Shown here piece by piece: positions 292 to 21,490 of a stretch of DNA of 59,711 bases. The translations under genes and the position numbers were made by a program. The DNA is taken from assembly GCA_017458265.1 (NCBI GenBank), contig JAFTFV010000052.1, forward strand, positions 1 to 59,711. Direction: 5' to 3'. Within the stretch, counting starts at the first letter, position 1. Each line of letters starts with the position of its first letter. This DNA comes from Bacteroidales bacterium (GTDB lineage Bacteria; Bacteroidota; Bacteroidia; Bacteroidales; UBA932). Under the pieces are notes generated by a model. The model saw only the letters and a list, made by a program, of their open reading frames with translations, had not been told where the DNA came from and did no database searches.

Positions 292-309
292 TGCCCCGAA
301 TATTGCCCC
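292..309 (+). repeat. Paired TGCCCC direct repeats, probable integrase arm sites (left)
   Basis: TGCCCC occurs at 292-297 and 304-309, a 12-bp period. The same hexamer is paired at the right end (13,957 and 13,968, an 11-bp period), and a TGCACC version lies just inside the older neighbouring element (14,156 and 14,167). About one helical turn of spacing at both ends fits arm-type integrase binding sites. This is inference. Confidence 0.45.
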
Positions 310-365
310 AAAAATATTAAAACTTTTATGCAAAAACTCATCTGGAGTCTTATGGACTCATATGA

Positions 366-1020: not shown

Positions 1021-1022
1021 TG

Positions 1023-1871: not shown

Positions 1872-1875
1872 AATT

Positions 1876-4726: not shown

Positions 4727-4731
4727 AGTAG

Positions 4732-5622: not shown

Positions 5623-5738
5623 TTCTTAGCAATCAAGTTCTTTCGGGCCCTGAAAAGACAAAGCACAAACAAAACAAGTGATATCACAAGAATCACCGGC
5701 TCTGCGAGCATAAACACCGGCATCTTTCCGGATGTCAA
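5538..5738 (-). pseudogene. Possible remnant of a two-TM membrane protein
   Basis: A minus-strand frame open from about 5804 down to 5538 encodes two strongly hydrophobic segments (around SGIALVILSSTLVTL and VILVISLVLFVLCLF) followed by basic residues. There is no ATG; the only early start is TTG 5738, inside the first segment. The 3' part overlaps the end of kinase 3. It lies directly behind the Toprim gene and may be the stump of a gene cut when the cargo was inserted. Weak call. Confidence 0.25.
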
Positions 5739-5791
5739 AGTGACCAGGGTCGATGATAGGATGACCAGCGCAATGCCGGAGACAAGAAAGA

Positions 5792-7481: not shown

Positions 7482-8190
7482 TGCTCTTTCCTCCTTTCGC
7501 CTCCATCTCCCGGAGTTTGAGATTCTGCTCCTGTTCGCGGATATACACCTTCATTTTTTCCTTCTCATCTCCTCCTTTATTGAAGTAGGCACGGACGAAC
7601 TCGTAGGCGTCGCCCCGGTGGGAGATGTTCCCCTCGTTCTGTTGAAGGCGGTGATGACAGACGGCATAGTAGCGTTTGCCCCAGTGCTCGGCGCTATTGT
7701 AATTGACATGGATTACTATCCCAAAGGCGATAGCAAGCGGGATGAACAGCCATGCCGCCAGGTCCCGGAGCCAGATTCGCCAGGGGGCGATCTTGGTCTC
7801 GTCCAGCTTATCGACAGCCCATTCTAACGTATTCACAGCTTCGTTCAGTTTCCTTTCGTGCGCCGAATCCAGACGGTGGACGCAGTCCGTTTCTATGCGG
7901 ATTTTGTATGTCTCAACAGCCTTCGCAAAGCCCATCGATGCAAACTGTTCGATTCTTTCTTTCAGCCCCGAGATGTCCGGTGCCGGAAGTTCGCAATCCT
8001 CTATTTGCTCCATCACCTGCGAGGCAATGGCATCAGCCACCGATTCCTGCATCTCCGGAGTAATTACCGCATAGATGGGTGCGACGGCGCGGCGCTCCTG
8101 GTCGGTCATACGCTCTTTCAGGTTCTTGATATCTACGTTGTGGTCGGTAAGGACTTCCTGTATGTCCTCATTATTAGAGTATTTAGTCAT
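7465..8190 (-). CDS. Single-TM coiled-coil protein of the mobilization region
   Basis: A 241-residue protein. The N-terminal half is charged and probably helical, one TM segment lies at about 144-162 (LAAWLFIPLAIAFGIVIHV), and the C-terminal tail is rich in Lys and Glu. It lies between the relaxase and the ATPase genes in one operon (20 nt after the relaxase, 17-nt overlap with the ATPase). Similar single-TM proteins accompany relaxases in Bacteroides mobilizable elements, and a role in bringing the relaxosome to the membrane or coupling protein is plausible. I do not recognise a named family. Confidence 0.6.
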   Translation of the reverse strand: MTKYSNNEDIQEVLTDHNVDIKNLKERMTDQERRAVAPIYAVITPEMQESVADAIASQVMEQIEDCELPAPDISGLKERIEQFASMGFAKAVETYKIRIETDCVHRLDSAHERKLNEAVNTLEWAVDKLDETKIAPWRIWLRDLAAWLFIPLAIAFGIVIHVNYNSAEHWGKRYYAVCHHRLQQNEGNISHRGDAYEFVRAYFNKGGDEKEKMKVYIREQEQNLKLREMEAKGGKSNAKKP

Positions 8191-8211
8191 AAGTTTTTCA
8201 TCTTTAATTGG

Positions 8212-9225
8212 TTAATAACTTCTTCCCCGGCCTTTCTTCTCGCCGATTTCTTCATCCTCCTCTTCTTGCTTTGAGCTGCTGCCTCCATCGGCAAAGATAC
8301 CGGCAACAACAATCTCTCCCACGCCCACGGCAATATCCTGGAAGGACACAGAACTTCTCTCCTGAGGCGCATCCTTGATTTCCTCTGCAGGGAAGAACCG
8401 GCTTCCGGTATCGGCTTTCCCTGTGGAAACGTCATTCAGCATTCGCTCTTGCCCCAATGACTTGAGGATGGATCCTGCACTGAGTTCACGGGCTAGTTTG
8501 GAACCTTTGAAAACATGCTCCTTCCCTTCGGAATCTTTGGCCGTAAAGGTGATGCCGATGACTTTTCCGGAGGATTGGCTCAGTTTCAGCGAGGTTTCTA
8601 TGCCGTGTTTGGCGGTTTCCTGCTTGAACTGGGACAAATTGGATGACTTCTGCAGGCATCGGTAAACGGTTTTGGCCACATCGTAACGGAAGCGTTCCGA
8701 CTTGTCGTTCACCTTGGCTTCTGAAATCACCTTGCTGTCACCCCAGGTGAGGCCCTCCCGCAAGGTAATGGCCCGGCATACATCCGTATTCCGGAGGAGT
8801 TCCTTACTGTCGCTTATACGCTTTCCGTCGTTGTCCACCCGGTTAAGGGTGATATGGACGTGGGGATTCCTGGTTTCCTCGTGCCGATGGATGACATATT
8901 GCGTGTTGGTGAACCCCATTTCCCGCATGTAATCCTTGGCCAGTTTCACCATATAGTCGTTGCTAAGGCGCGGTTTATCCTCCGGTTTGAAGGTGAGGGC
9001 AATGTGAACCACCGGCTTTGAGACCTTTGGGTTCAAGGCCGCTTGGATTTCGAAACTCCGTACAACAGCCTTCATGTCCGGGTCCGGCGTTCCGTCCGGC
9101 TTGTAGTTCATATCCACCCCGCAGCTGTCCAGGAAGGTGGCTATCTTCTGGTTCTGCTGGTCTTTGTCGCGGTCATAGTCCAGCGCTCCGCCGAACGATG
9201 CCCCTGTAGTGATTACCGCCATCAT
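8212..9225 (-). CDS. Relaxase / mobilization nuclease (MobB-type, PF03432)
   Basis: A 337-residue protein. The histidine motif HRHEETRNPHVHI (H113, H115, H122, H124) matches motif III of the MOBP/MobB relaxases. A candidate catalytic tyrosine is Y17 in GGALDYDRDK, following the GASFGG start common in Bacteroides MobB. It should nick the element at oriT and stay bound to the 5' end for transfer. The element has no type IV secretion genes, so it depends on a helper conjugative element. ATG 9225 overlaps the mobC stop (ATGA). The Ser/Glu-rich C-terminal quarter is probably disordered. Confidence 0.88.
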   Translation of the reverse strand: MMAVITTGASFGGALDYDRDKDQQNQKIATFLDSCGVDMNYKPDGTPDPDMKAVVRSFEIQAALNPKVSKPVVHIALTFKPEDKPRLSNDYMVKLAKDYMREMGFTNTQYVIHRHEETRNPHVHITLNRVDNDGKRISDSKELLRNTDVCRAITLREGLTWGDSKVISEAKVNDKSERFRYDVAKTVYRCLQKSSNLSQFKQETAKHGIETSLKLSQSSGKVIGITFTAKDSEGKEHVFKGSKLARELSAGSILKSLGQERMLNDVSTGKADTGSRFFPAEEIKDAPQERSSVSFQDIAVGVGEIVVAGIFADGGSSSKQEEEDEEIGEKKGRGRSY

Positions 9226-9686
9226 ATCTTCTTCACTTTAATCTGGTAATACGTCTTGATGTCGGCAAAGTCCGTCATGAACTGCATGTAAGTCTGCAGG
9301 GCATCGGCATCTTCCTTCAAGCGGCCCTGGACGAAGAGCTGGTTCAGCCGCTGCCCCATCTTGTGAAGGTTGCGGATGACATAGAGGTCATCGTCCGACA
9401 ATGCTTCGCTAAACGTTACTGACATCACCACCATTCGGCAGAACACAGATTCGGTAATCCTGTCAATGTCCCTGAGGAATGCATCATACTTTTTCCTGCC
9501 GATGTCGGCCCTCTCTAGCGCTTCCCGGCAGAAAACGGATGCTTCCTTTTTTGCCCGGCGCAGCTTCGAGTCAATCATCATCCTGTCATACTCATTCACG
9601 GCAAAGGAGACCCTCCTTCCGCGTACACGGGTGCGCTTCTCTATTCTTGGACGCCCACCCTTCCTGTCTTTTTTCACTTGGTCCAT
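9222..9686 (-). CDS. MobC-like relaxosome accessory protein
   Basis: A 154-residue protein, start at 9686 (MDQVKKDRKGGRPR). An upstream in-frame extension reads as low-quality sequence and crosses the oriT-like repeats, so it is excluded. It has a basic N-terminus (KGGRPRIEKRTRVRGRRV) followed by a ribbon-helix-helix-like stretch and the typical MobC end with LNQLFVQGRL. MobC helps open oriT and positions the relaxase. Its stop overlaps the relaxase start. The 143 nt upstream, before the excisionase-like gene, are the best place for oriT. Confidence 0.78.
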   Translation of the reverse strand: MDQVKKDRKGGRPRIEKRTRVRGRRVSFAVNEYDRMMIDSKLRRAKKEASVFCREALERADIGRKKYDAFLRDIDRITESVFCRMVVMSVTFSEALSDDDLYVIRNLHKMGQRLNQLFVQGRLKEDADALQTYMQFMTDFADIKTYYQIKVKKI

Positions 9687-9746
9687 AATAATGAAAAGGT
9701 TTTCTTTTTCACCGCATCTTCCGGCCTGCGGCGTTGGCCACTTTCC

Positions 9747-9799
9747 AGCCTGCGACCATTCGGGAGCAGGCTGCGAGGAAGGTTTGCGTTTACGCAAAC
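9747..9799. other. Candidate oriT: two inverted repeats upstream of mobC
   Basis: AGCCTGC (9747-9753) and GCAGGCT (9766-9772) form one inverted repeat. GTTTGCG (9782-9788) and CGCAAAC (9793-9799) form a tight hairpin with a 4-nt loop. They lie in the only non-coding gap beside the mob genes, where oriT usually is. No nic site can be assigned by eye. Confidence 0.5.
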
Positions 9800-9829
9800 A
9801 CAACCTCGCTACCCTCATTCTTCGGGCTG

Positions 9830-10153
9830 TCATAGTTCGGCCCTCCTTTGCTGCTGGTATTCATCGGCAAGCTGCCTTGCCAGCGGGGCGTTGAACACGA
9901 TGCGTTTGCCCACCTTGGAGACAATCGCTGCATCCAGAACGCCGCGACGTTTAAGATCATAGATGGTACTGGCACAACAGCCGATGTATGCCGCCAGGTC
10001 TTGAATCCCGTAGACATACTTCGTCGCTTCCGTCGAAGTGCCGGTCCCACCATTCTCCACTGTCGAGGCCATCCTGAAAATGGCCACGAGCTCCTCTCCC
10101 GTCATCTGGACGAGCATCTTCCCGAGGAGACTTTCGTTGTCATGTCTTTCCAT
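9830..10153 (-). CDS. Excisionase-like HTH_17 DNA-binding protein
   Basis: A 107-residue protein, start ATG 10153 (MERHDNE). The C-terminal half has a MerR-like winged helix typical of Bacteroides excisionase/DUF3853 proteins: YGIQDLAAYIGCCASTIYDL, then KVGKRIVF as the wing. These proteins bend DNA beside the attachment sites to favour excision or control mob genes. A very strong hairpin lies just upstream (10,186-10,226). It is separated from mobC by the candidate oriT, so it may have its own transcript. Confidence 0.68.
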   Translation of the reverse strand: MERHDNESLLGKMLVQMTGEELVAIFRMASTVENGGTGTSTEATKYVYGIQDLAAYIGCCASTIYDLKRRGVLDAAIVSKVGKRIVFNAPLARQLADEYQQQRRAEL

Positions 10154-10185
10154 GATCAAAAGTTTTAATTGTTAATATATAATGT

Positions 10186-10226
10186 CAGCCGGATAGAGAC
10201 TGCGTGGCAGTGGCTCTATCCGGCTG
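10186..10226. promoter_or_regulatory. Long perfect hairpin upstream of the excisionase-like gene
   Basis: CAGCCGGATAGAG (10,186-10,198) and CTCTATCCGGCTG (10,214-10,226) are perfect complements. Inside them ACTGC and GCAGT also pair around GTG, giving an 18-bp stem with a 2-nt bulge. No U-run follows on either strand, so a simple terminator is unlikely. It fills much of the 189-nt gap 10,154-10,342, which otherwise holds AT-rich sequence and no gene. An operator, a replication origin or an attenuator are the options. Confidence 0.6.
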
Positions 10227-10342
10227 CAAATATATACATTTATCATGCCAAAACAAAACTTAACAAATTGATTTACAATAAGTTAAGTTCTATCTCGGTT
10301 CTTGAAAATAAGGGTGGAATTAAATGGAACTCTGTTGGAACT

Positions 10343-10975
10343 CTACCTGGAAAAGTGCCACTTGATGCGCTCCCTGTCTCCCTTTGTCACCTTAGCTTTG
10401 CTAACGGCGCGGGCGGTGGTAAAAGAGAGCAATCCGGACGGGCCGTAATCCTTGATGATGAAACTTGACAGGCGGTTCAGGCTGACATCGGAGATGAGAA
10501 AGGCGGAATTCTTAAGGACATGTTCCAAAAGGGCATGGCATTCAACGGAACTCATCGGCATTTTGGCATCGTGCGCATGCGTAATGAAATTATCCACCTT
10601 ATGGTAGAATGATTCATCCGTAAAGCATTCGGCAAAAGAGGCGACGGGCTGGAGTTCCCTCCGACCCGCCTTGCTCTTTCGAATCTGAACATTGTGCGAC
10701 AGGGCGCTGAAAAGCATCAGGAGAAACAGGGTGAGTACCGGACCCGTTATCATCTTCCAGATGCTTGGGAAAGAAAAGACCACAGCCAAGAGCGCCAGAG
10801 CGCCGAAGATGCACCAAAAGACCGTGTTGTACAGCCTTGCATGCCTGACTTCTGTAGGCGCCATCTCCTCAATATCAACCGCAATAGGGTAGAGCAGGGA
10901 CTTCCAGTCGCTGTCTATGCGGCCGAAAATGTCTTTATAAAGCTTGATGATGCTTTTGGATTCTTCCTTGCTCAT
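10343..10975 (-). CDS. Two-TM membrane protein, partner of AlbA_2 protein A
   Basis: A 210-residue protein with a charged N-terminus (1-45), two TM segments (about 50-70 and 76-93) and a C-terminal domain of about 115 residues that should be cytosolic. No enzyme motif is visible and the family is not recognised. It starts 3 nt after the AlbA_2 stop, so the two genes are surely one transcript. The equivalent position behind AlbA_2 copy B holds a SNF2 helicase instead, which suggests that this is a replaceable partner or effector rather than part of the transfer machinery. Confidence 0.7.
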   Translation of the reverse strand: MSKEESKSIIKLYKDIFGRIDSDWKSLLYPIAVDIEEMAPTEVRHARLYNTVFWCIFGALALLAVVFSFPSIWKMITGPVLTLFLLMLFSALSHNVQIRKSKAGRRELQPVASFAECFTDESFYHKVDNFITHAHDAKMPMSSVECHALLEHVLKNSAFLISDVSLNRLSSFIIKDYGPSGLLSFTTARAVSKAKVTKGDRERIKWHFSR

Positions 10976-10978
10976 GGA

Positions 10979-12532
10979 TTATTTCTTAACCCGACGGTAT
11001 TTTTGATTAGGGTCGTTAGGGTTTTCCGGAATTGTCATTTCCAGTTGACCGTCTTCAATCATTGTTTGGATATAACGCTTTCTACTTCTTGACTGGTTTT
11101 GTATGCCCAGCCTATCCATGATCTCCTGAGCAGATCTCGGAATGGAGCAGAAATTTATAATGTCCTGCTGCTTCTTGGTAAGTTGGTGCTTTTTCTTCGA
11201 GGTTGGTGCCTTATTTTCCCGAGGTTGGTGCTTTATTTCCGAGGTTGGTGCGTTTTTACCCTGAGGTTGGTGCGTTTCTCCCGAACTCGGAGCATTTACA
11301 TGGTGCTCTTTCCGGGGGATTGTTACCACGAACTCTTTGGTTTTCTCATTGTCGGAGAACTTCACCTCGATACCAGTCTCCATAGCACGTTTGAGTCCAC
11401 TGCCGGCACCTGTATAAGGTAAAAGGTAGATAGCGTTGTCGAAAAGAAGGTCATTTCTTGGCATGGATACTCCAGAGACCATGCTCTCTACTGTCATCCC
11501 TGCAGGCAGGTTTCCGGGGCTATGAATCTCAATGCGGTCATCGAAGATAAAGACGCGGACAGGCATTGTCCATACCAGACTTCGGTGTACCAAGGCATTG
11601 GCTGTGAACTCCATAAGAGCAACAGGTGGTATCTCAAGTTCTCCCAGAGAGTTGAAGTTCTCCTCTACCTGTACATTCCTTAAATTACGGGTAAAGAACT
11701 GCATGATGGAGTTGTACTGATGGAGGATATTCCCTTCCATGGCGGTATCGGAGAACCGGTCACGATACTCACTCCCTCCAACGGAATTACCAAAGAAACT
11801 GATACATTTGGCGGTATAGGTAGGGATAAATCGCTGGGTGGCTTTCGCAAACAGGACAACAGCCGCTACGGTAAAACGGCCGTCCGGTCTGATGAGTTTA
11901 AGGTTTCTGAGAATGTCGGCAGATGTTTTCCCCTTAATAAGCAGTGAAGCTATTTCATCGGCGTTCAAATCGGACAGGGTTCGCCCATCGTCCGTCTGTT
12001 TAGGCAAGGCTTCACGAAATTTCTTGAGCAGGAAGGTCTTGATGGCATCCATGTCCATATCTTCCAGTGTGGCGTCTGGCACCACAGCCTCATCCGCCTC
12101 GAAGGTGCCACAGTCATCCATCATGGCCTTGAGTTCCATGTTATCAAAAATCCTCCGCTTGTCCGAACCTTGCTTTATCCAGATTATGCCCTTGTTATCG
12201 TGGTATGGCTTGTTCGTCCCCTCTTTGATAATGGCAATCACAATGTTTCCTCCCTTCACTTTGGACGTTTCCGTCTCAATCAGAATGGAAGGATGGAGCA
12301 TGTCGCTGGCAATCTGGCCCAGCGTGGCAGTGGTTTCCTGGGTTTCCTTGTATGAGAGGGCATTGATCACTCCCGTCTTGTCGTTAATACCGATAACAAT
12401 GCGCCCGCCACGGTAATTGCTCATTGCGCACATCTCGCATGCAATGTCATAATTGTCGGTAATCCGCTCCTTGAACTGTACTTTGCCAACTTCGGCCAAA
12501 TCTCTCAGTTCCAGTATCTCTTTTTCGGTCAT
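10979..12532 (-). CDS. AlbA_2 (Schlafen-type) / HATPase_c_4 / winged-helix protein, copy A
   Basis: A 517-residue protein. The N-terminal AlbA_2 domain (about 1-130) holds VQFKE and GGRIVIGINDKTG. The middle is as in RecG-like transcriptional regulators, with a HATPase_c_4-type segment at about 300-420 (ALMEFTANALVHRS ... GSGLKRAMET), then a repetitive linker and a C-terminal winged helix (about 450-517). Such proteins are annotated as ATP-dependent helicase RecG-like, but no helicase motifs are present. A nucleic-acid-responsive regulator or defence sensor is more likely. It follows the integrase by 42 nt and shares most of its sequence with copy B at 18,326-19,867. Confidence 0.8.
   Translation of the reverse strand: MTEKEILELRDLAEVGKVQFKERITDNYDIACEMCAMSNYRGGRIVIGINDKTGVINALSYKETQETTATLGQIASDMLHPSILIETETSKVKGGNIVIAIIKEGTNKPYHDNKGIIWIKQGSDKRRIFDNMELKAMMDDCGTFEADEAVVPDATLEDMDMDAIKTFLLKKFREALPKQTDDGRTLSDLNADEIASLLIKGKTSADILRNLKLIRPDGRFTVAAVVLFAKATQRFIPTYTAKCISFFGNSVGGSEYRDRFSDTAMEGNILHQYNSIMQFFTRNLRNVQVEENFNSLGELEIPPVALMEFTANALVHRSLVWTMPVRVFIFDDRIEIHSPGNLPAGMTVESMVSGVSMPRNDLLFDNAIYLLPYTGAGSGLKRAMETGIEVKFSDNEKTKEFVVTIPRKEHHVNAPSSGETHQPQGKNAPTSEIKHQPRENKAPTSKKKHQLTKKQQDIINFCSIPRSAQEIMDRLGIQNQSRSRKRYIQTMIEDGQLEMTIPENPNDPNQKYRRVKK
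11181..11273 (-). repeat. Five-copy 9-mer repeat in the linker of AlbA_2 copy A
   Basis: The 9-mer GGTTGGTGC (first copy AGTTGGTGC) starts at 11,181, 11,201, 11,223, 11,243 and 11,265. The steps are 20, 22, 20 and 22 nt. Because 20 and 22 are not multiples of three, the same bases are read alternately as HQ(P/L) and APTS. The gene stays in frame because the steps sum to 42. Confidence 0.85.
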
Positions 12533-12548
12533 AGCCTCAATGTTTTTA

Positions 12549-12580
12549 CAAAATTAAGGATTTTTTGCCTTAGCCTACAA
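12549..12580 (-). promoter_or_regulatory. Promoter of AlbA_2 copy A; -33 box inside the integrase 3' end
   Basis: On the minus strand, -7 box TAATTTTG (12,549-12,556; consensus TAnnTTTG) lies 21 nt after TTG (12,578-12,580), which is the last sense codon of the integrase. Predicted transcription starts about 10 nt before ATG 12,532. Copy B has the same arrangement and the same 21-nt spacing. Confidence 0.6.
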
Positions 12581-13939
12581 CAAATTGTTGAATTTGGTCA
12601 TGGACTGGGCTTTGATGGAGTCCACGATGTCAATGTAGGGCTTCATGGCCTTGTAGTCGGAGTGCCCGGTCCACTTCATGACAATGTTGGGGGAGATTCC
12701 CATGGAGAGGGCCTGGACGATGAAGGTGCGGCGGCCGGTATGGGTGCCCACCAGTTCCCACTTGGGATTGACAGTATCGGTTCTCACGTTTCCCTTGTAG
12801 GTAGTGATGCGGATGGGCTCGTTGATTTCGGCCAGCTGGCAGAGTTCTTTCAGGCTGCGATTCATGGCCTGGTTGGTGAAAGAGGGAAGGGCTTTGTTGT
12901 CCTTGAAAGGGACGTCCTTGTACTTTTCCAGAATGGCCTTGGTAATATCGTTCAGTTCGATGGACACGCTGTCACCTGTCTTGATGGTGGTCACGTCCAT
13001 GTGATCCTCTTTGATGTCGCTGCGGCGGAGGTTATCGGCATCGGAATGCCGGAGGCTGGAGAAGCAGCAGAAAAGGAAGATGTCCCGGACGGGCTCCAGT
13101 TTGGACCCTGACAAATCCAGGTCCTTGACACGCTGTAACTCTTCTTTGGTAAGGTAGATAATGGGCTTCTGCGTCTGCTTAAGCGTGGGCTTGAAGGTCT
13201 TGAACGCGGGATTTACGGGATACCCCACGTCGCGCGCCCATCGCAAGAACCAGGTGAGATACTCCAGCTTTTTCTTGATGGTGGTGTTGTTAAGGCCTAC
13301 CTGTACAGCTTTTTCTTCCTCATCTTCCTCGGCGTTTTTCTTCTTTTTCGCAGGGAATACCTTCTTTTCATCACGGAGGTAGCCGACAAATCTTGTTAGG
13401 GCATCCTCGTTCAGCTCGGAGAGCTTGACTTTGGGACCGAAGTTCTGCAAATCGGCCCTGAGTGCCGACATCTTCTCGAAGGTGGCGATGGTCCAGGCGT
13501 TCTTTTCGCCGCATTTGCGGGTGAATTCGTCGAAAACAACGAACATGTCCGGCTCCTTGGGCTTCTGTTCCCGTTTCTTCTTCTCGGGCTCTGGGCGTTT
13601 GGGTATCACTCCACTTAACCTCTCTTCGTATTTCTTTTGAATCTGTGACAGTGTGGGGATGACATCCATAGCCTCATAGTATTTGAACGCCGTGTCCATC
13701 TGGTCACGGAGATTCCGGAGACTATTGTTGATGGATAGTGCCGTCTCTCCTTTGGGCCCTTTGTAATCGTCTTTGACAAAGCCGATACTGTCGTCCCAAT
13801 AATCCGGGTCCAGGATTGAATGCCCTGTTTTGAAGTCAATTCTCTGCGAATTGAATGATACTCTCATCCTGATTTGAAAGATGTTCTTATCTTTCCCGAT
13901 GGCCCGTGTCTTAAAAGAAATCTTGCGTTTAATAACCAT
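12575..13939 (-). CDS. Tyrosine recombinase (integrase) of the element
   Basis: A 454-residue protein, start ATG 13,939 (MVIKRKISF); a TTG further up would run through the arm-site repeats. It has an Arm-like N-terminus and a core-binding domain interrupted by a Lys/Glu-rich insertion (about 196-212, KKKKNAEEDEEEK). The catalytic residues are R297 (SSLRHSD), H400 and R403 (HTGRRTF), H426 (GHSD) and nucleophile Y435. It should integrate the element at the tRNA-Ala 3' end through the 21-bp core. Its last codons double as part of the AlbA_2 promoter. Two truncated relatives of this gene lie at 14,773-14,822 and 19,910-20,087. Confidence 0.92.
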   Translation of the reverse strand: MVIKRKISFKTRAIGKDKNIFQIRMRVSFNSQRIDFKTGHSILDPDYWDDSIGFVKDDYKGPKGETALSINNSLRNLRDQMDTAFKYYEAMDVIPTLSQIQKKYEERLSGVIPKRPEPEKKKREQKPKEPDMFVVFDEFTRKCGEKNAWTIATFEKMSALRADLQNFGPKVKLSELNEDALTRFVGYLRDEKKVFPAKKKKNAEEDEEEKAVQVGLNNTTIKKKLEYLTWFLRWARDVGYPVNPAFKTFKPTLKQTQKPIIYLTKEELQRVKDLDLSGSKLEPVRDIFLFCCFSSLRHSDADNLRRSDIKEDHMDVTTIKTGDSVSIELNDITKAILEKYKDVPFKDNKALPSFTNQAMNRSLKELCQLAEINEPIRITTYKGNVRTDTVNPKWELVGTHTGRRTFIVQALSMGISPNIVMKWTGHSDYKAMKPYIDIVDSIKAQSMTKFNNLL

Positions 13940-13956
13940 AACGAATGTCTCAATAA

Positions 13957-13973
13957 TGCCCCAAAAGTGCCCC
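13957..13973 (+). repeat. Paired TGCCCC repeats, probable integrase arm sites (right)
   Basis: TGCCCCAAAA at 13,957 and TGCCCC at 13,968, an 11-bp period, lie between the integrase start and its promoter. The left end carries the same pair. Binding here could both organise recombination and repress the integrase gene. Confidence 0.45.
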
Positions 13974-13983
13974 AAAAACGGGT

Positions 13984-13999
13984 GGAGTTATTTAACTCC
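13984..13999. promoter_or_regulatory. Perfect 16-bp palindrome, candidate integrase operator
   Basis: GGAGTTA-TT-TAACTCC is a perfect palindrome, extended on both sides by GGG/CCC with one mismatch (13,980-14,003). It lies directly downstream of the integrase -7 box, so a bound protein would block transcription. No cognate repressor can be named; the excisionase-like protein is a candidate. Confidence 0.5.
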
Positions 14000-14004
14000 G
14001 CCCG

Positions 14005-14035
14005 CAAAAATACGCAATAGAAATCATTTAAACAA
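14005..14035 (-). promoter_or_regulatory. Integrase promoter
   Basis: Minus-strand -7 box TATTTTTG (14,005-14,012) and TTG (14,033-14,035) are separated by 20 nt, fitting the Bacteroidota consensus. Transcription would start near 13,998, inside the palindrome, leaving a leader of about 60 nt before ATG 13,939. Confidence 0.55.
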
Positions 14036-14063
14036 GGGTTTCAGGAGGGCTTTGTACTTTTAA

Positions 14064-14084
14064 TTCGAATCCGACTACCTCCAC
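14064..14084 (+). repeat. Right attachment core (attR)
   Basis: Identical to 226-246 over 21 bp. Only the tRNA-Ala 3' part is present; upstream bases do not continue the tRNA, so this is a displaced fragment and not a second gene. It separates the current element from the older element remains to its right. Confidence 0.9.
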
Positions 14085-14096
14085 CCATTTAAAATC

Positions 14097-14132
14097 AAAA
14101 ACCCTTTCTGAATATACTCAGAAGGGGTTTTT
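14097..14132. terminator. Rho-independent terminator after the right core
   Basis: AAAAACCCTTTCTGA (14,097-14,111) and TCAGAAGGGGTTTTT (14,118-14,132) form a 15-bp stem with one G-T pair and a 6-nt loop. The placement, 12 nt after the core, matches the terminator after the left core (2 nt after it). It is either the original end of the tRNA operon or the left end of an older element. Confidence 0.75.
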
Positions 14133-14155
14133 CTTATTTTAGGGCTCTAAAAAGA

Positions 14156-14172
14156 TGCACCAAAATTGCACC
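14156..14172 (+). repeat. Paired TGCACC repeats, probable arm sites of the older element
   Basis: TGCACC at 14,156 and 14,167, an 11-bp period, lie inside the right core as the TGCCCC pair lies inside the left core. The C-to-A change would fit an older, related integrase. Confidence 0.35.
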
Positions 14173-14254
14173 AGTGGTGTATCCAAGGTCATTATGACAC
14201 CCTTTTCATCTTCTCAAAAGTTGGTGGAACCTTTTGAGGTATTGATGGTTGGCT

Positions 14255-14741
14255 CTATTTAAGGACTTCCCAATAGCCTCCATTCTCGGCGCCATGACGC
14301 ACGATTTCTCCGCTCTCGCGCATTTTACGAACAGATTTTTCAACGCCACTAGCCGTTATGCCAATATTCTGAGCTATTTCTATATAAGTGATATATTTAT
14401 CCTTCTCCATCAACTCCTTAATTCTCACTTTTGTCTTCACCCTCCCTCTCACCTCACTTTTCACCTCACTTTTCACCTCACTTTTTTCGTTTTGTCCGGA
14501 AATAGCACCTAAGTGTAAGGTCAATTCTACCCGGTCTGTATTGGGGCCGAAATGCTCTTTGAGTTCCGGTTCCGGCCATTTGTTCTCCTTCCAGCACGAT
14601 AATGCCGGCGGCTGTGTTGGCAAAGGCGGAGTAACTCTCCCAGAAACTACCGGGGAAGCCGCCCTTGGCTCCCTTAAACTCAACCTCGTATCCTTCTTTC
14701 TTGCCACAGAGAGCAAGAATAAATGATCTAAAAACCTTCAT
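14255..14741 (-). pseudogene. AlbA_2 gene remnant, copy C (large internal deletion plus frame change)
   Basis: The first part (from 14,741) encodes an AlbA_2 start: YEVEFKGAKGG, WESYSAFANTAAGI. The last part, in another frame and ending at TAG 14,255-14,257, encodes the usual C-terminus of these regulators: KWPEPELKEHF, an ITASGVEKSVRKMRESGEI winged helix and GGYWEVL. The middle, roughly 300 residues in relatives, is gone, so it cannot be functional as one protein. The linker holds a 12-nt repeat read as KSEV three times. It lies directly behind an integrase scrap, as copies A and B lie behind theirs. It belongs to a somewhat different AlbA_2 subtype. Confidence 0.75.
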
Positions 14742-14746
14742 AGGGG

Positions 14747-14778
14747 CGAAGTTACCAAAATAATCTTGATTCTTACAA
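14747..14778 (-). promoter_or_regulatory. Degenerate AlbA_2 promoter, copy C
   Basis: TTG (14,776-14,778) from the integrase scrap is followed after exactly 21 nt by TAACTTCG (14,747-14,754), one base off TAnnTTTG. The spacing equals that of copies A and B. Confidence 0.35.
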
Positions 14779-14822
14779 CAAATTGTTGAATTTGGTCATG
14801 GACTGGTTGGTGAAAGATGGAA
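14773..14822 (-). pseudogene. Integrase remnant C, last codons only
   Basis: Read on the minus strand it encodes FPSFTNQSMTKFNNLL followed by TAA. In the intact integrase, LPSFTNQ and QSMTKFNNLL are separated by about 80 residues that hold the catalytic HxxR, H and Tyr. The deletion is in frame and joined at a CAG codon shared by both sides. Upstream homology fades at about 14,822. Confidence 0.8.
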
Positions 14823-14877
14823 ACACACAGTAAGTTTACTCAAGGCACTGAAACTCTCTTGGGGCTTCGATGCTTGT

Positions 14878-17800
14878 TTACTGATAATCAAAGATTTCAT
14901 GCAGCTCCGAGTCGGAAAGTTTTCCTATCCAGCTTTCTCCGGAAGTGACGGTGAGGTCGGCCAGTGCTTTCTTTTCGCCGATCATTCTGTCTATCTTCTC
15001 TTCAAATGTGCCGGCAGTGACAAATCGAGTGACCAGGACATTCTTGTGCTGACCGATGCGGTAGGCACGGTCTGTTGCCTGGGCCTCTACGGCGGGATTC
15101 CACCAAAGGTCAAAATGGATGACATGCGATGCTGCGGTAAGGTTAAGTCCGGTCCCGGCAGCTTTGAGAGAGAGGATGAAAATACGTTCGCTTTTGACGT
15201 TTTGGAACCGGTCTATCATCTCGGTGCGCTGCTTAAGCGAGCATCCTCCATGATAGAATAGCGGGTCAACGTTGAGTTCGCGGCGGATTATATTTGACAA
15301 CAAGTCCCCCATTTCCTTGAATTGGGTAAAAACGAGAACCTTTTCGCCGCTTTCCAGAATGCTTCGGACAAGATCTACCAGCATTTCGCACTTGCCGGAA
15401 AGGCCAATTTCTTCCTTTCCGTCTTTGAGGAAAAGCGACGGGTGGTTGCAGATTTGCTTGAGCGCAAGAATCATCTGGAGAACAATACCCTGCCGTTTGA
15501 AAAGGGACTCGTTTTGGGCGCCCTCCAGCGTGGACATGTATTCTTGTACCACCTGCTGGTATAAGGCTGCCTGAGACGGCGTAAGTGAAGGCGTATAATT
15601 TCGGGTAACCTTGTCCGGGAGATCCGAAATGATGCTTTTGTCGGTTTTGAGTCGTCGTATTATGAATGGCGCCGTAACGCGGCGAAATCTTTCTACACAA
15701 GCCTTGTCTCCCTCCTGTTCGATGGGTGCGGCATATTGCTCACGGAAACGCTTGGCTGTATCCAGATAACCTTTGTTTGCGAAATCCATGATGCTCCAGT
15801 ACTCGCTGAGACGATTCTCGACAGGGGTTCCGCTCATGGCAATCTTCACTTCGGCTTGGATGGACTTTACGGCGCTGGTCTGTGCGGCGGTGGTGTTCTT
15901 GATGTTCTGCGCTTCATCAATAATTTCAACTTCCCACTTGAGTTTGCCGATAGTGTCGGCATCGCTTCTGAGTACGCCGTAAGAGGTGAGGAGAATATCT
16001 GCATTAAAATCTTTGATGCTGCGTCCGATGCCGTGGTATCTTGCGTGTGAGAGGAACGGTGCGAATCGGTTCAGTTCCGCCTCCCAGTTTACCAGAAGGC
16101 CTGTTGGAACAATTATGAGTGCCTTCTTGCTCTCGAGTGCGCCTTCTTCCTTGAGTTTTTGCAGCAGCGTGATAACTTGAAGGGTTTTTCCAAGTCCCAT
16201 GTCGTCGGCAATGATGCTGCCAAAGCCGAGGCGGAAATTTTTGTACATCCACGAATAACCGCGAATCTGGTAAGGCCGGAGCCGTGCATCAATTCCCCTT
16301 GGTACATCAATGTCTTCTATGGTTGTAAGTTCCCGGATGAGTTCTCGCACGTCGCTTGAGAGGGAAACCTGTGCCCCTTCGAACTCCCCGGAAAGGGCAG
16401 CCTGCATAAGCCGCATCTTTCCAGGTCCTTTTGCCGATGAAAAAGCCTTGTTCAGCCGGACCAGATCGTCATCATCGACGCAGAAATAACTGGATTTGAA
16501 GCGGATAAGCCCATGTGCGTTTTTAAGGAGCTTTGTGAAATCCGCGTTGTCGATCATCTCATCGCCTATGGCAACAGCCCAGTTGAAGTCCAGAAGATCA
16601 TCGGCCCGAAAGAAAGATTTCCCGGAAGATGCTTTCTTTGTTATGCGCAGGCTTGGCCTGGGGTGAATCAGCGTTTCAAGACCCTTGGGAAGGACTACTT
16701 TCACGGAAAGAAGCCTGACGACGGGGATGATGTCCCGGAGGAAGTCGAAAAAATGCCTGTCTGTCATCTTCATCGGCTCTTTGGCGCCGCTGTCCACCCA
16801 TGACGATGCTCCTTGAACGTGTCTTAGAACGATGCCCAGTTGCTGAAGCATTTTAAAACGGTCATTCTCGTATATTTTCCTTGAGAGAATGTTGCGCAGC
16901 GCCACTTCCCGCCCCTTTATCTCAAAGCCGAAATCTATGGCGAAACCCTCTCCGACGTCATCCGCTTTAAGAAAAGGTTTGTATCCGCTGCTCGCAATCC
17001 TGAATGAAGACAACCAGGCTTTGATGCTGCCCGGAATTCCTTTTTCGCCGATAGCGTCAAAACTGCAGAAGTTCCCGCAAAAGAACATGTCGGACAGGTC
17101 ATGGTCCTGCGGCGTCACGCTTTCCTGAATAAGGAGAGTGATAAACGCTTCGAGGACAAGCGTGGCGCCGTTTTGCAGAGCACGTCCTTTTGCATTGACG
17201 GCGAGGCTGTCTCCGGATGCGTCAGAGAGGTCTTTTACAAGCGCAGATACAACTCCGTCCATCATGGCTGGCTCCCAGATTATTTTGTAATCCCCGTCAT
17301 CGGTCATCATAATCTTGGGCACGACGCAGCCTTTCAGTACAAGAGATACGGCTGTCCGGTAAATCATGTATAAAAGATGGGCCGATGGCTGCATCATGCT
17401 GCGGTCCTTGTTCTCCCACTCCCGAAAAGCCTCAATGAGAATTCCGGATTGCAGTTTCCCTGTTTTTCCCCCGAAGTCATAGACTTCTCCGAGGATTTCA
17501 AAATCGGGATAGAAAACAATCCGAATATCCGAAGAGGCTCGCACGGGGTTCAGCAGTAAGTCTTTCGGGGCCTGTTTTGCAAGAGAGCGCTGAGCTCTGT
17601 GAAGAAGTTTTCTGTACTTTTCCCGAAAGCCCTTTTCAAATGGTGGGTCTTCCTCCAAAATGCCTATAAGCTTGTCCGTAAGGTCCGGGATGATGGAAAA
17701 GTCCGGCGCGCACGGTTTGATATCAGAAGTCTTACCGGCAAGAACAAATGCTTCCGAGATTTTCTCAATAGACAGGGTCCTGCCGCAATTCAACTTTACT

Positions 17801-18312
17801 CCTAAAGATTCTATCTCCAAGGGGATATCCAGTCCATGCATACGGAATACAAGGAACGGGTCATTGTCTATTTCCTGACTCACCTTATAGATGACTGCGG
17901 CAATGTGCTTGCAAGGGACAGCCCAGTCCGGGCAACTGCATTTCATCCCAAGGTCTTTCCAACTTGAAGGGAAAACTTTGAGGCCGCATTTAACCGCCAT
18001 CGGAAGCACCTCCTGGGGGAGTTCATTGTTCATGAGTCGTGACAGAATGGCGGGATGGGTTGAAAGGTCCTTCACCAGGGCCTTCTTTCCGGCTTCGGAG
18101 AACTGAGGAACTTTAATTTCGATCTTATATGGAGACGGGCGTGAGCCCTTCACTCTTGCTTTCACCACTCCGCCTTTGTCAAACACCACCTCACGCACAC
18201 TGCCATTACGTGCGTAGCGGGCGCCACGCGGTATCCTGTTTGCGAAATCAATGTGGGTGAGCGAGTCCAGCCAACGCTGTCCCCACCAGGTGAGGCCGAA
18301 GCTTTGAGCCAT
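14878..18312 (-). CDS. SWIM zinc-finger SNF2-family helicase/ATPase
   Basis: A 1,144-residue protein with a SWIM finger near the N-terminus (C125, C127, C134, H136 in CSCPDWAVPCKH), a long middle region and then the SNF2 ATPase. Visible motifs are Walker A DMGLGKT (about 720), DEAQ box IIDEAQNIKN, SGTPVENRLSEYWSI, the C-terminal lobe with VFTQFKEM and the QATDRAYRIGQ motif VI. SNF2 enzymes move or strip proteins on double-stranded DNA, and bacterial SWIM-SNF2 proteins are common in accessory and defence islands. It starts 13 nt after AlbA_2 copy B and appears to be its operon partner. It ends next to integrase remnant C. Frame and motifs look intact. Confidence 0.87.
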   Translation of the reverse strand: MAQSFGLTWWGQRWLDSLTHIDFANRIPRGARYARNGSVREVVFDKGGVVKARVKGSRPSPYKIEIKVPQFSEAGKKALVKDLSTHPAILSRLMNNELPQEVLPMAVKCGLKVFPSSWKDLGMKCSCPDWAVPCKHIAAVIYKVSQEIDNDPFLVFRMHGLDIPLEIESLGVKLNCGRTLSIEKISEAFVLAGKTSDIKPCAPDFSIIPDLTDKLIGILEEDPPFEKGFREKYRKLLHRAQRSLAKQAPKDLLLNPVRASSDIRIVFYPDFEILGEVYDFGGKTGKLQSGILIEAFREWENKDRSMMQPSAHLLYMIYRTAVSLVLKGCVVPKIMMTDDGDYKIIWEPAMMDGVVSALVKDLSDASGDSLAVNAKGRALQNGATLVLEAFITLLIQESVTPQDHDLSDMFFCGNFCSFDAIGEKGIPGSIKAWLSSFRIASSGYKPFLKADDVGEGFAIDFGFEIKGREVALRNILSRKIYENDRFKMLQQLGIVLRHVQGASSWVDSGAKEPMKMTDRHFFDFLRDIIPVVRLLSVKVVLPKGLETLIHPRPSLRITKKASSGKSFFRADDLLDFNWAVAIGDEMIDNADFTKLLKNAHGLIRFKSSYFCVDDDDLVRLNKAFSSAKGPGKMRLMQAALSGEFEGAQVSLSSDVRELIRELTTIEDIDVPRGIDARLRPYQIRGYSWMYKNFRLGFGSIIADDMGLGKTLQVITLLQKLKEEGALESKKALIIVPTGLLVNWEAELNRFAPFLSHARYHGIGRSIKDFNADILLTSYGVLRSDADTIGKLKWEVEIIDEAQNIKNTTAAQTSAVKSIQAEVKIAMSGTPVENRLSEYWSIMDFANKGYLDTAKRFREQYAAPIEQEGDKACVERFRRVTAPFIIRRLKTDKSIISDLPDKVTRNYTPSLTPSQAALYQQVVQEYMSTLEGAQNESLFKRQGIVLQMILALKQICNHPSLFLKDGKEEIGLSGKCEMLVDLVRSILESGEKVLVFTQFKEMGDLLSNIIRRELNVDPLFYHGGCSLKQRTEMIDRFQNVKSERIFILSLKAAGTGLNLTAASHVIHFDLWWNPAVEAQATDRAYRIGQHKNVLVTRFVTAGTFEEKIDRMIGEKKALADLTVTSGESWIGKLSDSELHEIFDYQ

Positions 18313-18325
18313 AAGAGGGAATGGT

Positions 18326-19867
18326 TTATTCTTTGTAAGATATCTGAGTACGGCGATATTTCTGATTCATATGCGTTGGATTCTCTGGAATCGTGAGTTC
18401 CAGATACCCTTTCTCAACTAACTCTGTGATATAATGCTGACGGTTTTTAGTCTGATTCGTTATGCCCAACCTATCCATAATCTCTTTTGCTGTTCGGGGG
18501 ACGGAGCAGAAATTAACAATATCCAATTGTTTTTTCGTAATCAGGGGACGAGTAACCATGGTTACTTTTCCCTGGTTACTTCCTGGGTTACCTTCGTTAC
18601 TTTCGAGGTTGCCTTGGTTACTTGGTGCATTTACATGGTGCTCTTTGCGCTGAATAGTGACCACGAATTCTTTAGTCTTCTCATTGTCGGAGAAATTCAC
18701 CTCGATACCAGTCTCCATGGCGCGCTTGAGCCCGCTCCCGGCTCCTGTGTAAGGAAGAAGGAAGGCGGCATTGTTAAACAGGAGGTCGTTTCTGGGCATG
18801 GAAATGCCAGAGACGACGCTCTCTACCGTCATCCCTGCCGGCAGGTTGCCGGGGCTGTGAATCTCCACGCGATTATCAAAGATAAACATACGTACAGGCA
18901 TAGTCCACACCAGGCTACGATGGACCAAGGCATTGGCTGTGAATTCCATAAGTGCGACAGACGGAATTTCAAGCTCGCCCAGCGAGTTGAAATTCTCTTC
19001 CACCTGGACATTCCTTAAATTCCGTGTAAAGAACTGCATGATGGCGTTGAACTGGTGAAGGATGTTCCCCTCCATCGAAGTGTCCGGAAAACGGTCGCGA
19101 TACTCGGTTCCGCCGATGGAATTACCGAAGAAACTAATACACTTAGCCGTATAGGTGGGAAAGAAGCGTTGGACTGCCTTGGCAAAGAGAATGACTGCAG
19201 CTACGGTAAAACGACCGTCCGGCTTAATAAGTTTAAGGTTTCTGAGAATATCGGCGGCTGTTTTGTCCTTAATAAGCAGCGATGCTATTTCATCGGCGTT
19301 CAAATCGGCCGGCTTTCTTCCATCATCTGTCTGTTTTGGCAAGGCATCACGGAACTTTTTCAGAAGGAAAGTCTTGATAGACTCCATGTCCATGTCTTCC
19401 ATCGTGGCGTCGGGTACAACAGCCTCATCTGCCTCGAAGATGCCACAATCATCCATCATGGCCTTGAGTTCCATGTTATCAAAAATCTTCCGCTTGTCCG
19501 ATCCTTGCTTTATCCAAATGATGCCCTTGTTGTCATGATAGGGTTTGTTCGTCCCCTCTTTAATAGAGGCAATTACAAGATTCCCGCCCTCCACTTTGGA
19601 CGAGTCGGTCTCAATGAGAATGGAAGGATTGAGCATAGTGCTGGCGATATTTCCCAGCGCTTGGGTGGTCTCCTGTGTTTCTTTGAAGGAAAGAGGATTA
19701 ACTGCACCTGTTTTATCGTTGATGCCAATTATGATTCGCCCCCCTTTGTAATTACTCAAGGCGCACATCTCGCAGGCAATGTCGTAGTTATCTACAATCC
19801 GCTCTTTGAATTGGACCTTGCCCACTTCGGCCAAATCTCTCAGTTCCAGTATTTCTTTTTCGGTCAT
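18326..19867 (-). CDS. AlbA_2 / HATPase_c_4 / winged-helix protein, copy B
   Basis: A 513-residue close paralogue of copy A. The start at 19,867 aligns with copy A (MTEKEILELRDLAEVG); a TTG three codons earlier is less likely. It has the same order of AlbA_2 domain, ATPase-like domain with ALMEFTANALVHRS and GSGLKRAMET, linker and winged helix. The linker differs: it has SNxGN repeats instead of the HQP/APTS alternation of copy A. The promoter keeps the integrase tail as -33 box. It is followed by a SNF2 helicase rather than a two-TM protein. The open frame over its full length and conserved domains suggest that selection continues, although its integrase has been lost. Confidence 0.8.
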   Translation of the reverse strand: MTEKEILELRDLAEVGKVQFKERIVDNYDIACEMCALSNYKGGRIIIGINDKTGAVNPLSFKETQETTQALGNIASTMLNPSILIETDSSKVEGGNLVIASIKEGTNKPYHDNKGIIWIKQGSDKRKIFDNMELKAMMDDCGIFEADEAVVPDATMEDMDMESIKTFLLKKFRDALPKQTDDGRKPADLNADEIASLLIKDKTAADILRNLKLIKPDGRFTVAAVILFAKAVQRFFPTYTAKCISFFGNSIGGTEYRDRFPDTSMEGNILHQFNAIMQFFTRNLRNVQVEENFNSLGELEIPSVALMEFTANALVHRSLVWTMPVRMFIFDNRVEIHSPGNLPAGMTVESVVSGISMPRNDLLFNNAAFLLPYTGAGSGLKRAMETGIEVNFSDNEKTKEFVVTIQRKEHHVNAPSNQGNLESNEGNPGSNQGKVTMVTRPLITKKQLDIVNFCSVPRTAKEIMDRLGITNQTKNRQHYITELVEKGYLELTIPENPTHMNQKYRRTQISYKE

Positions 19868-19883
19868 AGCCTTCAAGTTTTTA

Positions 19884-19915
19884 CAAAAATAAAGAAAAAT
19901 TGGCTCCCATTACAA
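19884..19915 (-). promoter_or_regulatory. Promoter of AlbA_2 copy B
   Basis: TATTTTTG (19,884-19,891) lies 21 nt after TTG (19,913-19,915), the last sense codon of the integrase remnant. The sequence between differs from copy A, so box and spacing are conserved while the filler is not. Confidence 0.6.
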
Positions 19916-20087
19916 CAAATTGTTGAATTTGGTCATGGACTGGGCCTTGATGGAGTCAGCGAGTTCCCATTTGGAATAAACGTCATCATGACGGACATTC
20001 CCTTTATAAGTTGTTATGCGAACTGAGTCATTGATTTCGGCCAGCTGGCAAAGTTCCTTAAGGCTGCGGTTTTTCTGTTTATGCAAG
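19910..20087 (-). pseudogene. Integrase remnant B, C-terminal piece lacking the catalytic box
   Basis: The minus strand encodes NRSLKELCQLAEIND, then a stretch ending KWEL fused to ADSIKAQSMTKFNNLL and a stop. Compared with the intact integrase, about 43 residues from THTGRRTF to the catalytic Tyr region are deleted in frame, and everything before NRSLKEL is missing. It abuts the alkaline phosphatase stop (20,090), so the older element's far end lies here. No copy of the 21-bp core is seen at this edge. Confidence 0.82.
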
Positions 20088-20089: not shown

Positions 20090-21490
20090 CTAATGCTTAT
20101 AGCCCGCAAGCTTTGCGATGAGGGGGGCGATCTCGGTGTTGTCGTGGAGGGGTGAGAACTGCTCTTTGCACTTGCCCTGGACATAGAGGCCCACGGGGCT
20201 GCCGGAGTGGGAGCCGTAGCTCCACTGGTAGCCTGCGGCGCGGGCAAGAATGTCCACGGCCTCAACCACCAGGGCGGAATTGACGGCATAGAGGTTTGCC
20301 TCGGAAAGGTCGCGGCCCTTTCCTAGGGTGTCGTCATAGACAGCGCGGAGTTTGGCTTCGGCCTTTTCATTCACAGGAACGGCATCCCAGAGGCCGAGGT
20401 TCTCCTTGAAGAAGGCTTTTACCTTGTCCCATGAAGGGGCTACGGGCTTCTGGCCATCCGGGAAGAAGGTTCTGCGGAAGAGGACCGTCAGTTCCGGCTT
20501 GGACATCTTCTGGTTCGTAAGAAGTTCAGGATGCATTTCATACTTCCCGGCGCCAAGCATAAGGCCGCCGGTTTCGTGGTCGGCAGTGATGACGATGAGT
20601 GTTTCATCGGCATGCTTGTAATAGAAATCAAGGACGACGTCGATTGCAGAGGCGAAATCGTTGAGCTCGTGCACGCAGGCGGCAATGTCGTCACCGTGGC
20701 TTGCCCAGTCTATCTCGCCGCCTTCAATCATGAAGAAGAAGCCCTTCTTTCCGTAGTTGGCATCAAGGTAATCGATGCCGGCCTTTACGAAGTCGCTAAG
20801 TTTGGTGTCGTCTTCCTTGCGGTCGATGGCATAAGGGAGGGATTCCTGGTCCTTGCCGCTGAGGCACAGGACGCGGCCGGACACATCGGCAACGCCGTCA
20901 AATGAGGGACCGCGGAAAACGGTTATGCCCGCTTCCCTGGAGGCCTCGATGAAGTAGTTGTTGTCCTTGTCGGAACCTTTCTGTTTGATGAACCCGGCAC
21001 CGGCGGCAAAATCTACGGGCGCGGTAAGGTACTGCGTGGAGATATCCTCGTAGTTTTTGCGCTTCTCAGTGTGTGCCATGAAACAGGCCGGGGTGGCATG
21101 ATTAAGGCCCACGGACGTGCAGATGCCTGTACCATAGCCGTTTGCCTTTGCCCAGTCTGTAAGTGAGAGGACCGGCTTCACGTCAGGATCAACACCGATT
21201 GCACTGTTGTAAGTCTTAACACCGCTCGCAAGGGCAGTTCCGCCTGCCGCAGAGTCAGTTACCCTGGACGATGAAGAATACGTGGTTACGAAGCTGTGAA
21301 CCGGGAAATTGGCAAAGTTTATCTCGGCAGGACCAAGGCCCGTAGCGATATTGAACTCCTGGGTGCCAAAAACCTGGTTAATCCCCATACCGTCTCCAAT
21401 AAGGTAGAATACATACTTCACTTCTGGCTGGCTTTTGCATGCGCCAAGCGACAGAAGTGCAAGCACCGGCAGCAATATTCTCATTTTCAT
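20090..21490 (-). CDS. Alkaline phosphatase, PhoA family, lipoprotein
   Basis: A 466-residue protein with a lipoprotein signal (lipobox LGAC, C18). YLIGDGMG holds the first metal-binding Asp. DSAAGGTALASG holds the phosphorylated Ser. EGGEIDWASHGDD and TADHETGG carry the remaining metal ligands. It hydrolyses phosphomonoesters in the periplasm or at the surface. The gene's last codon stands 3 nt from an integrase remnant, so the element junction grazes but does not visibly truncate it. The C-terminus (LAGYKH) may have been altered at the junction. It has its own promoter. Confidence 0.9.
   Translation of the reverse strand: MKMRILLPVLALLSLGACKSQPEVKYVFYLIGDGMGINQVFGTQEFNIATGLGPAEINFANFPVHSFVTTYSSSSRVTDSAAGGTALASGVKTYNSAIGVDPDVKPVLSLTDWAKANGYGTGICTSVGLNHATPACFMAHTEKRKNYEDISTQYLTAPVDFAAGAGFIKQKGSDKDNNYFIEASREAGITVFRGPSFDGVADVSGRVLCLSGKDQESLPYAIDRKEDDTKLSDFVKAGIDYLDANYGKKGFFFMIEGGEIDWASHGDDIAACVHELNDFASAIDVVLDFYYKHADETLIVITADHETGGLMLGAGKYEMHPELLTNQKMSKPELTVLFRRTFFPDGQKPVAPSWDKVKAFFKENLGLWDAVPVNEKAEAKLRAVYDDTLGKGRDLSEANLYAVNSALVVEAVDILARAAGYQWSYGSHSGSPVGLYVQGKCKEQFSPLHDNTEIAPLIAKLAGYKH

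Follow-up and report, generated by a model that had tools for sequence, protein, structure and literature searches.

Why does one stretch of bacterial DNA hold the same gene pair, an integrase followed by an AlbA_2 (Schlafen-like) gene, three times over, with two of the three integrases in decay? The stretch (the window) comprises the 59,711 nucleotides (nt) of contig JAFTFV010000052.1, assembly GCA_017458265.1, and comes from the 2.13-Mb genome of a rumen Bacteroidales bacterium. All three units lie on the minus strand, each integrase or integrase remnant preceding its AlbA_2 gene, as an earlier, sequence-only reading of the window had proposed: 13939–10979 (intact), 14822–14255 (gutted) and 20087–18326 (integrase remnant with intact AlbA_2). 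The ending MTKFNNLL that this reading saw in all three integrases is indeed common to them, and the corresponding coding tail, with up to 3 mismatches allowed, has exactly three sites in the whole genome, all in the window; it did not occur in 100 dinucleotide shuffles of the window. The answer that we favour, and hold to be probable, is that successive integrative mobilizable elements (IMEs) targeting tRNA-Ala inserted here, carrying behind the integrase an exchangeable slot in which candidate defence genes are swapped, with the integrase tail as promoter half. The units and the right border of the slot are made up as follows (aa, amino acids; dN/dS, ratio of nonsynonymous to synonymous substitution rates).

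12575–13939, minus strand: integrase of element 1 (unit 1), a tyrosine recombinase of 454 aa counted from ATG (Pfam Phage_int_SAM_5 and Phage_integrase)
12575–12608, minus strand: integrase tail of unit 1, 34 nt
10979–12532, minus strand: slot gene of element 1, an intact AlbA_2 of type A with SLFN_AlbA_2, HATPase_c_4 and a C-terminal Fic-like_C (Pfam)
10343–10975, minus strand: p210, a 210-aa protein forming the right border of the slot (homology with locus L006 resumes at its start)
14773–14822, minus strand: unit 2 integrase remnant, PSFTNQ codons plus tail (SMTKFNNLL) only
14255–14741, minus strand: unit 2 AlbA_2 of type B, gutted to N-terminal codons and a C-terminal part in a different frame
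19910–20087, minus strand: unit 3 integrase remnant, beginning at NRSLKEL, deleted internally, tail whole
18326–19867, minus strand: unit 3 AlbA_2 of type A, intact and under purifying selection (Pfam, dN/dS)

On comparison of related loci the slot gene, that is the gene behind the integrase, is seen to have been exchanged between elements. Thus, the window and L006 have integrases that are 98% identical and DNA that from p210 onward is again 98% identical, with an AlbA_2 of type A in the slot of the former and of type C in that of the latter. Unrelated slot genes likewise stand behind 96–99% identical integrases in the pairs L029/L030 (integrases 99% identical; YhcG versus AlbA_2), L019/L020 and L020/L021, the trio L019/L020/L021 holding three unrelated slot families behind integrases that are 94–98% identical, and the reverse discordance is found in L018/L029, with slot genes 99% and integrases 86% identical. 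A quick integrase tree was made from 47 rows (22 with a slot label and 25 without), loci above L056 and short integrases being left out; across its labelled rows the slot switches type 12 times or more. Since the slot holds unrelated families that are swapped between near-identical integrases, the linkage is to the slot and not to the integrase.

The joints of this exchange were located in 12 pairs of our own choosing. In eight of these homology stops 0–12 nt before the integrase stop codon (L029/L030, L019/L020, L020/L021, L022/L037, L022/L025, L019/L021, L014/L015 and L026/L028), with L014/L015 and L026/L028 not counting as swaps of two known genes because L015 and L026 have no slot frame. 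Homology ends 7 and 19 nt beyond the integrase stop in L060/L065 and L060/L073, and 130 nt before it in L025/L037, L037 being frameshifted there. The alignment of L018 and L029 runs on across the integrase stop into the slot gene common to both, and its mismatches (55 over the 634 nt that end at −66, 0 between −65 and +326, and 14 between +327 and +576, already in the slot gene) place one joint in the final 65 nt of the integrase. The right border is seen in two pairs only, L029/L030, which become homologous again 10–11 nt past the slot gene, and window/L006. A swap would then proceed by recombination at two joints, the first at the integrase 3′ end or close to it and the second immediately beyond the slot gene. 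An AlbA_2 type B 3′ fragment lies behind an AlbA_2 of type A in L011 (12966–13032), L094 and L132, before p210 in L011 and L132, and is the trace of an earlier slot occupant. As a separate matter, an insertion-sequence (IS)-like insertion, whose ends are GGCTCACCCGCAAGG and which appears to have an 8-nt target repeat, lies between tail and slot gene in L008, L009, L010, L136, L141, L160 and L161, its other end being found in L134/L092.

The range of slot occupants was surveyed in 55 loci, left from 79 after removal of 3 whose integrases are not closed frames and 21 with no plus-strand frame of at least 100 aa within 600 nt (for several of these 21, a contig end is the cause). YhcG/DUF1016 occupies 19 slots, AlbA_2/Schlafen-like proteins 8, AAA_14–DUF4143 5, ATPase_2 4, DUF4062–HATPase_c_4 2 and RhuM 1, the rest being other or unassigned. 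Candidate defence models of PADLOC match at least 24 of the 55 slot genes (PDC-S02 19, PDC-S01 5), and PDC-S05 and PDC-S27 each match one slot-gene representative; these four single-gene candidates are described as widely distributed in rumen genomes in the part of PMC13356809 drawn on here. The slot is thus a conserved position with varying candidate defence genes and a conserved backbone on both sides, which is how an integrase-adjacent defence hotspot presents itself. In the genus of the window the slot gene is mostly AlbA_2, and elsewhere a YhcG nuclease, an AAA_14–DUF4143 ATPase, RhuM or others, many of them candidate antiphage genes. The claim that AlbA_2 travels with this integrase stands only locally, within the genus; at other loci the same slot holds unrelated families, exchanged between near-identical integrases, and AlbA_2 is one of several occupants, not a fixed integrase partner. 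A literature search judged by titles and the beginnings of abstracts returned no paper on this slot.

We next consider the integrase tail. The genus-wide survey yielded 33 tails in 23 of 400 genomes, of which 31 were examined (30 fetched plus L089; L088 repeats L166). In this census 20 of the 31 tails precede an AlbA_2 gene or its remnant (the label of L089 being a weak tblastn match of 24% only, and L140 being counted by its first 45 codons), and in 13 of the 31 the integrase has decayed. In Bacteroides the sigma-AB consensus consists of a −7 box TAnnTTTG and a −33 TTTG, the −33 part not having been found in Flavobacterium johnsoniae, as given in the relevant part of PMC7366714. In unit 1 the last TTG codon of the integrase lies 21 nt 5′ of TAATTTTG, a putative −7 box, and unit 2 has retained a promoter-like spacing (N21) from its tail to the type B AlbA_2. 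Allowing TAnnTTCG as our own variant beyond the published box, TAnnTT[T/C]G stands 19–23 nt after the last TTG-position codon of the integrase in 14 of 23 distinct tails, compared with a mean of 0.12 and a maximum of 3 in 2000 shuffles of the leaders. A box at 20–22 nt is present in 20/20 tails that precede AlbA_2, whose leaders are mostly related by descent (about three leader types) and so do not represent 20 independent events, and in 0/11 of those without AlbA_2, three of the latter lacking it because their leader is interrupted by an IS. Over the final five codons of the integrase the codon is unchanged in 0.80–1.0 of comparisons, versus 0.31–0.69 in 20-codon bins, though some codons just ahead of these five are not conserved (K455 0.11, Q457 0.29). 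AlbA_2 start codons follow some 31–44 nt behind the tail. The integrase tail thus probably supplies the −33 half of a putative AlbA_2 promoter, in which the last integrase codons (TTG-TTG-TAR) would be the −33 half and the box in the leader of the slot gene the −7 half.

A tail that is a predicted promoter half could explain why gutted integrases keep it. Behind the 13 decayed integrases, six slot genes are intact (L150, L154, L159, L164, L167 and L168), four are broken (L140, L145, L153 and L163), two are cut by contig ends and one is unassigned. The 12 distinct left ends of decayed integrases, 11 measured directly and that of L145 taken from the tail survey, are found at distances of 4, 4, 7, 7, 20, 21 and 24 nt upstream of ATGACC in the tail, the other five lying farther off; such clustering is what selection for the slot-gene promoter would give, without being proof of it. 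In old insertions, then, the integrase would be deleted and the tail kept, often with an intact slot gene, and we propose that tail and slot gene are kept because the host benefits from the gene and its promoter. Solo tails with left ends 4–7 nt upstream of ATGACC were met in four cases (window 14773–14822, L056 12376, L140 and L150). In L150 (G495) the gene behind the solo tail is an ATPase gene 98% identical to that of L133 (G424), where at 4135–5862 an element has shrunk to tRNA-Ala, terminator, one intact 387-aa ATPase gene and an integrase remnant. L140 (G606) shows at 1500–2900 a solo tail, a promoter-like box and the first ~45 codons of a type A AlbA_2 fused in frame to an apparent HAD-phosphatase frame.

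The insertion site and the content of the intact element are given by the following features.

173–246, plus strand: tRNA-Ala (TGC), the insertion target, its last 21 nt (226–246) being the attachment (att) core (ARAGORN/Rfam)
247–290, plus strand: intrinsic-terminator-like hairpin directly after tRNA-Ala, left end of element 1 (by eye)
954–5622, plus strand: cargo of element 1, namely three APH-family proteins, a Y_phosphatase3 protein and an LD-carboxypeptidase (S66) (Pfam)
5792–10159, minus strand: backbone of element 1, namely a DUF6371 protein, an AAA_25 ATPase, a 241-aa protein, relaxase, NikA-like protein and DUF3853/helix-turn-helix (HTH) protein (Pfam)
8212–9225, minus strand: relaxase of element 1 (Pfam)
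9222–9833, minus strand: NikA-like protein of element 1 (weak match below the Pfam cut-off)
9830–10159, minus strand: DUF3853/HTH protein of element 1 (Pfam)
14064–14084, plus strand: second att core, a copy of the tRNA-Ala 3′ end, at once the right end of element 1 and the left end of an older insertion (21-nt repeat)

The paired 21-nt cores, the second of which sits just upstream of integrase 1, delimit element 1 to about 247–14084. With an integrase, a relaxase and flanking att direct repeats, element 1 has the sequence features of an IME, and it looks like an intact one. The same paired cores occur in relatives, 9.0 kb apart in G342 (274596/283555) and 12.5 kb apart in L132 of G401 (672/13198), and a hairpin followed by a T stretch also comes after the tRNA-Ala 3′ end in relatives (by eye). 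The successive insertion at one site, followed by decay, that the sequence-only reading supposed is supported by the att cores and by the sister genome described below; the site is the tRNA-Ala 3′ end, and the integrase tail was ruled out as att site because it is the tRNA-Ala repeat that bounds the element. In the genus a 16S-tRNA-Ile-tRNA-Ala block is followed by a terminator-like hairpin (by eye; window 1–290, L103–L131) with no 23S. Rfam gave no 23S match after tRNA-Ala in the 20 relatives' loci that hold some 1.5 kb beyond it, and a typed 23S motif was absent from 30 loci as well. The rRNA genes thus appear unlinked in this genus, and an insertion splitting an rRNA operon was rejected since relatives' loci have no 23S beside tRNA-Ala.

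Beyond element 1, positions 14085–20087 are debris of older insertions, in part better preserved in a sister genome (G315/L006, RGIG5001, roe deer rumen). The debris includes one further gene:

14878–18312, minus strand: SNF2/SWIM helicase, accessory (in 3 of 101 genus genomes at E ≤ 1e-150)

Its presence in only these three genomes led us to reject SNF2 as a core chromosomal gene. The unit 3 integrase remnant adjoins an alkaline phosphatase gene (20090–21490). The sister genome has, beside element 1, a second segment bounded by att copies at L139 2211 and 9866 (the latter with 1 mismatch), which contains an integrase of full length, an internally deleted AlbA_2 of type A, SNF2, a solo tail, an intact type B AlbA_2 (L006 7842–9332) and, by eye, the beginning of p210. 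The two genomes have suffered opposite losses, the window having its integrase gutted, type A intact and type B gutted. An att core between adjacent elements together with a decayed neighbour, the mark of accretion, is present both in the window (14064–14084) and in the sister genome (L139 2211/9866). The decay does not amount to the dated record that had been suggested, as it shows no steady rise with distance from the tRNA: the AlbA_2 of unit 3 is intact and that of unit 2 broken. Unit 2 is gutted in both genes, as had been read, with the difference that its AlbA_2 is of another type, whose intact relative in L006 is 20% identical to copy 1. Between copies 1 and 3 the protein identity is about 80% and the dS (synonymous divergence) about 1.5, so that the two are not recent local duplicates. 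A conserved mini-AlbA_2 arising by internal deletion was also considered and rejected: L006 has one open 155-aa frame, but the remnants of window type B and L034 are out of frame.

As to what AlbA_2 might do, the window copies score 73 and 68.4 bits against the Pfam PF04326 gathering cut-off of 25.3, and the domain order is SLFN_AlbA_2, HATPase_c_4 and then HTH (types B and C) or Fic-like_C (type A); the intact type B relative in L006 is 20% identical to copy 1. The AlbA_2 of element 1 has dN/dS values of 0.04–0.08 against four relatives, and type A overall 0.04–0.18, several of the dS values being saturated; by this codon-level measure type A is under purifying selection. The first Glu (E14) is invariant in 12 aligned rows; types B and C then have a Glu before FK where type A has Gln. 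These aligned carboxylates would be the catalytic residues of a Schlafen RNase, and the Gln makes nuclease activity of type A uncertain. Proteins combining a Schlafen RNase, a minimal histidine kinase and a winged HTH are reported as effectors in bacteriophage exclusion (BREX) loci in the portion of a published survey used here (PMC12839542). From family and position we infer a protective action for AlbA_2, as a Schlafen-type RNase with ATPase-like and DNA-binding parts.

Several observations weigh against the reading that we favour, next to the shared descent of the AlbA_2 leaders and the three leaders interrupted by an IS. The tail is conserved also in AlbA_2-free loci, and the protein tail itself may therefore be constrained; four slot genes are broken behind decayed integrases; and intact integrases with deleted AlbA_2 occur (L162 and L169). 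In PADLOC the tested AlbA_2 proteins matched only weakly, and only models associated with Argonaute and a single WYL model, so that their defence role draws on literature and position. Defence-like neighbours exist also one gene further downstream, the top PADLOC family there reaching 5 of 52 loci versus 19 of 55 for the slot, which weakens the exclusivity of the slot but not its enrichment, and in Prevotella-type loci the slot is mostly YhcG (16/24). Finally, among 151 genus genomes, seven genes share 78% or more identity with AlbA_2 copy 3; six of them stand behind the integrase or its tail (one placement inferred across an IS between two contigs), and one of these seven type A genes and both relatives at 48% identity stand without the integrase.

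Chance itself, with plain IME accretion and an AlbA_2 adjacency frozen by descent, is the least probable of the alternatives: IME accretion beside decayed elements is well known (PMC5704250, in the part concerned) and the sequences are related, but slot turnover at a conserved position, the reverse discordance of L018/L029 and purifying selection speak against it. We regard it as unlikely that AlbA_2 is the element's own regulator, of integrase, excision or transfer, adjacent for regulatory reasons and not as defence cargo. The C-terminal HTH domains of types B and C would suit such a role, as would the start codons close behind the tail and a putative promoter overlapping the integrase end; near-identical elements, however, hold unrelated nucleases and ATPases in the same slot, AlbA_2 remains intact behind decayed integrases, and the published BREX-locus effectors (PMC12839542, as above) have a similar make-up.

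It is very unlikely that the tail is a recombination site and the AlbA_2 genes cassettes captured and shuffled by this integrase in the manner of an integron. Exchange joints at the integrase 3′ end, an extra gene in L073 between integrase and the older slot gene YhcG (compare L060), the tail-gene-tail-gene order of L056/L135 and the 7 of 12 distinct left ends within 24 nt of ATGACC would all fit; yet no tail-like repeat was seen by eye to the right of the slot genes at the junctions inspected, the same swapping occurs behind integrases with different tails, the tRNA-Ala att cores already serve this integrase, and the left ends vary. A related proposal, to which we give little credence, makes the integrase 3′ end a dedicated loading joint, tail-plus-gene units being installed by the integrase or via the conserved tail, which would double as promoter half; if true, mobile elements of Bacteroidales would possess a way of reloading antiviral genes that resembles an integron. 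On balance we retain tRNA-Ala-targeted IMEs with an exchangeable slot. On this reading, single-gene antiviral systems of uncultured gut and rumen Bacteroidales could be sought in the gene behind this integrase family, and a recombinase gene is predicted to provide, in its last codons, promoter DNA to an adjoining and possibly defensive gene; the reading also suggests why the integrase can decay while its neighbour survives.

Each component of this picture has a known counterpart. Tandem accretion of IMEs beside decayed elements has been described as arrays of cis-mobilizable elements (CIMEs) and IMEs at tRNA 3′ ends, which, in the part of PMC5704250 consulted, share with our locus the tyrosine integrase, the relaxase, the tRNA-derived att repeats and an intact element beside a decayed one; the differences here are the exchangeable slot behind the integrase and the site, tRNA-Ala of a 16S block without 23S following. 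The hotspot between psu and int of P4-like satellites (Rousset et al. 2022; PMC9122126, in the section concerned) likewise places variable antiviral cargo at a fixed position by the integrase, whereas here the carrier is a mobilizable element and not a phage satellite, the exchange unit is one gene, the predicted promoter overlaps the integrase end and the cargo is candidate defence only. BREX-linked bacterial Schlafen proteins have, in the portion of PMC12839542 cited, the same order of SLFN_AlbA_2, HATPase_c_4 and then HTH (as in B and C) or Fic-like_C (as in A), whereas those described here stand alone behind the integrase; no BREX gene is among the annotated window genes, no search aimed at BREX having been made. 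As in integrons, incoming genes take up a constant position next to the gene of a tyrosine recombinase, whereas integron cassettes have recombination sites on both sides and here no repeated site was seen by eye to the right of the inspected slot genes. Set against these systems, the accretion in the window is ordinary and integrase-side defence hotspots are known; the new part appears to be an exchangeable slot with a promoter apparently reaching into the integrase gene.

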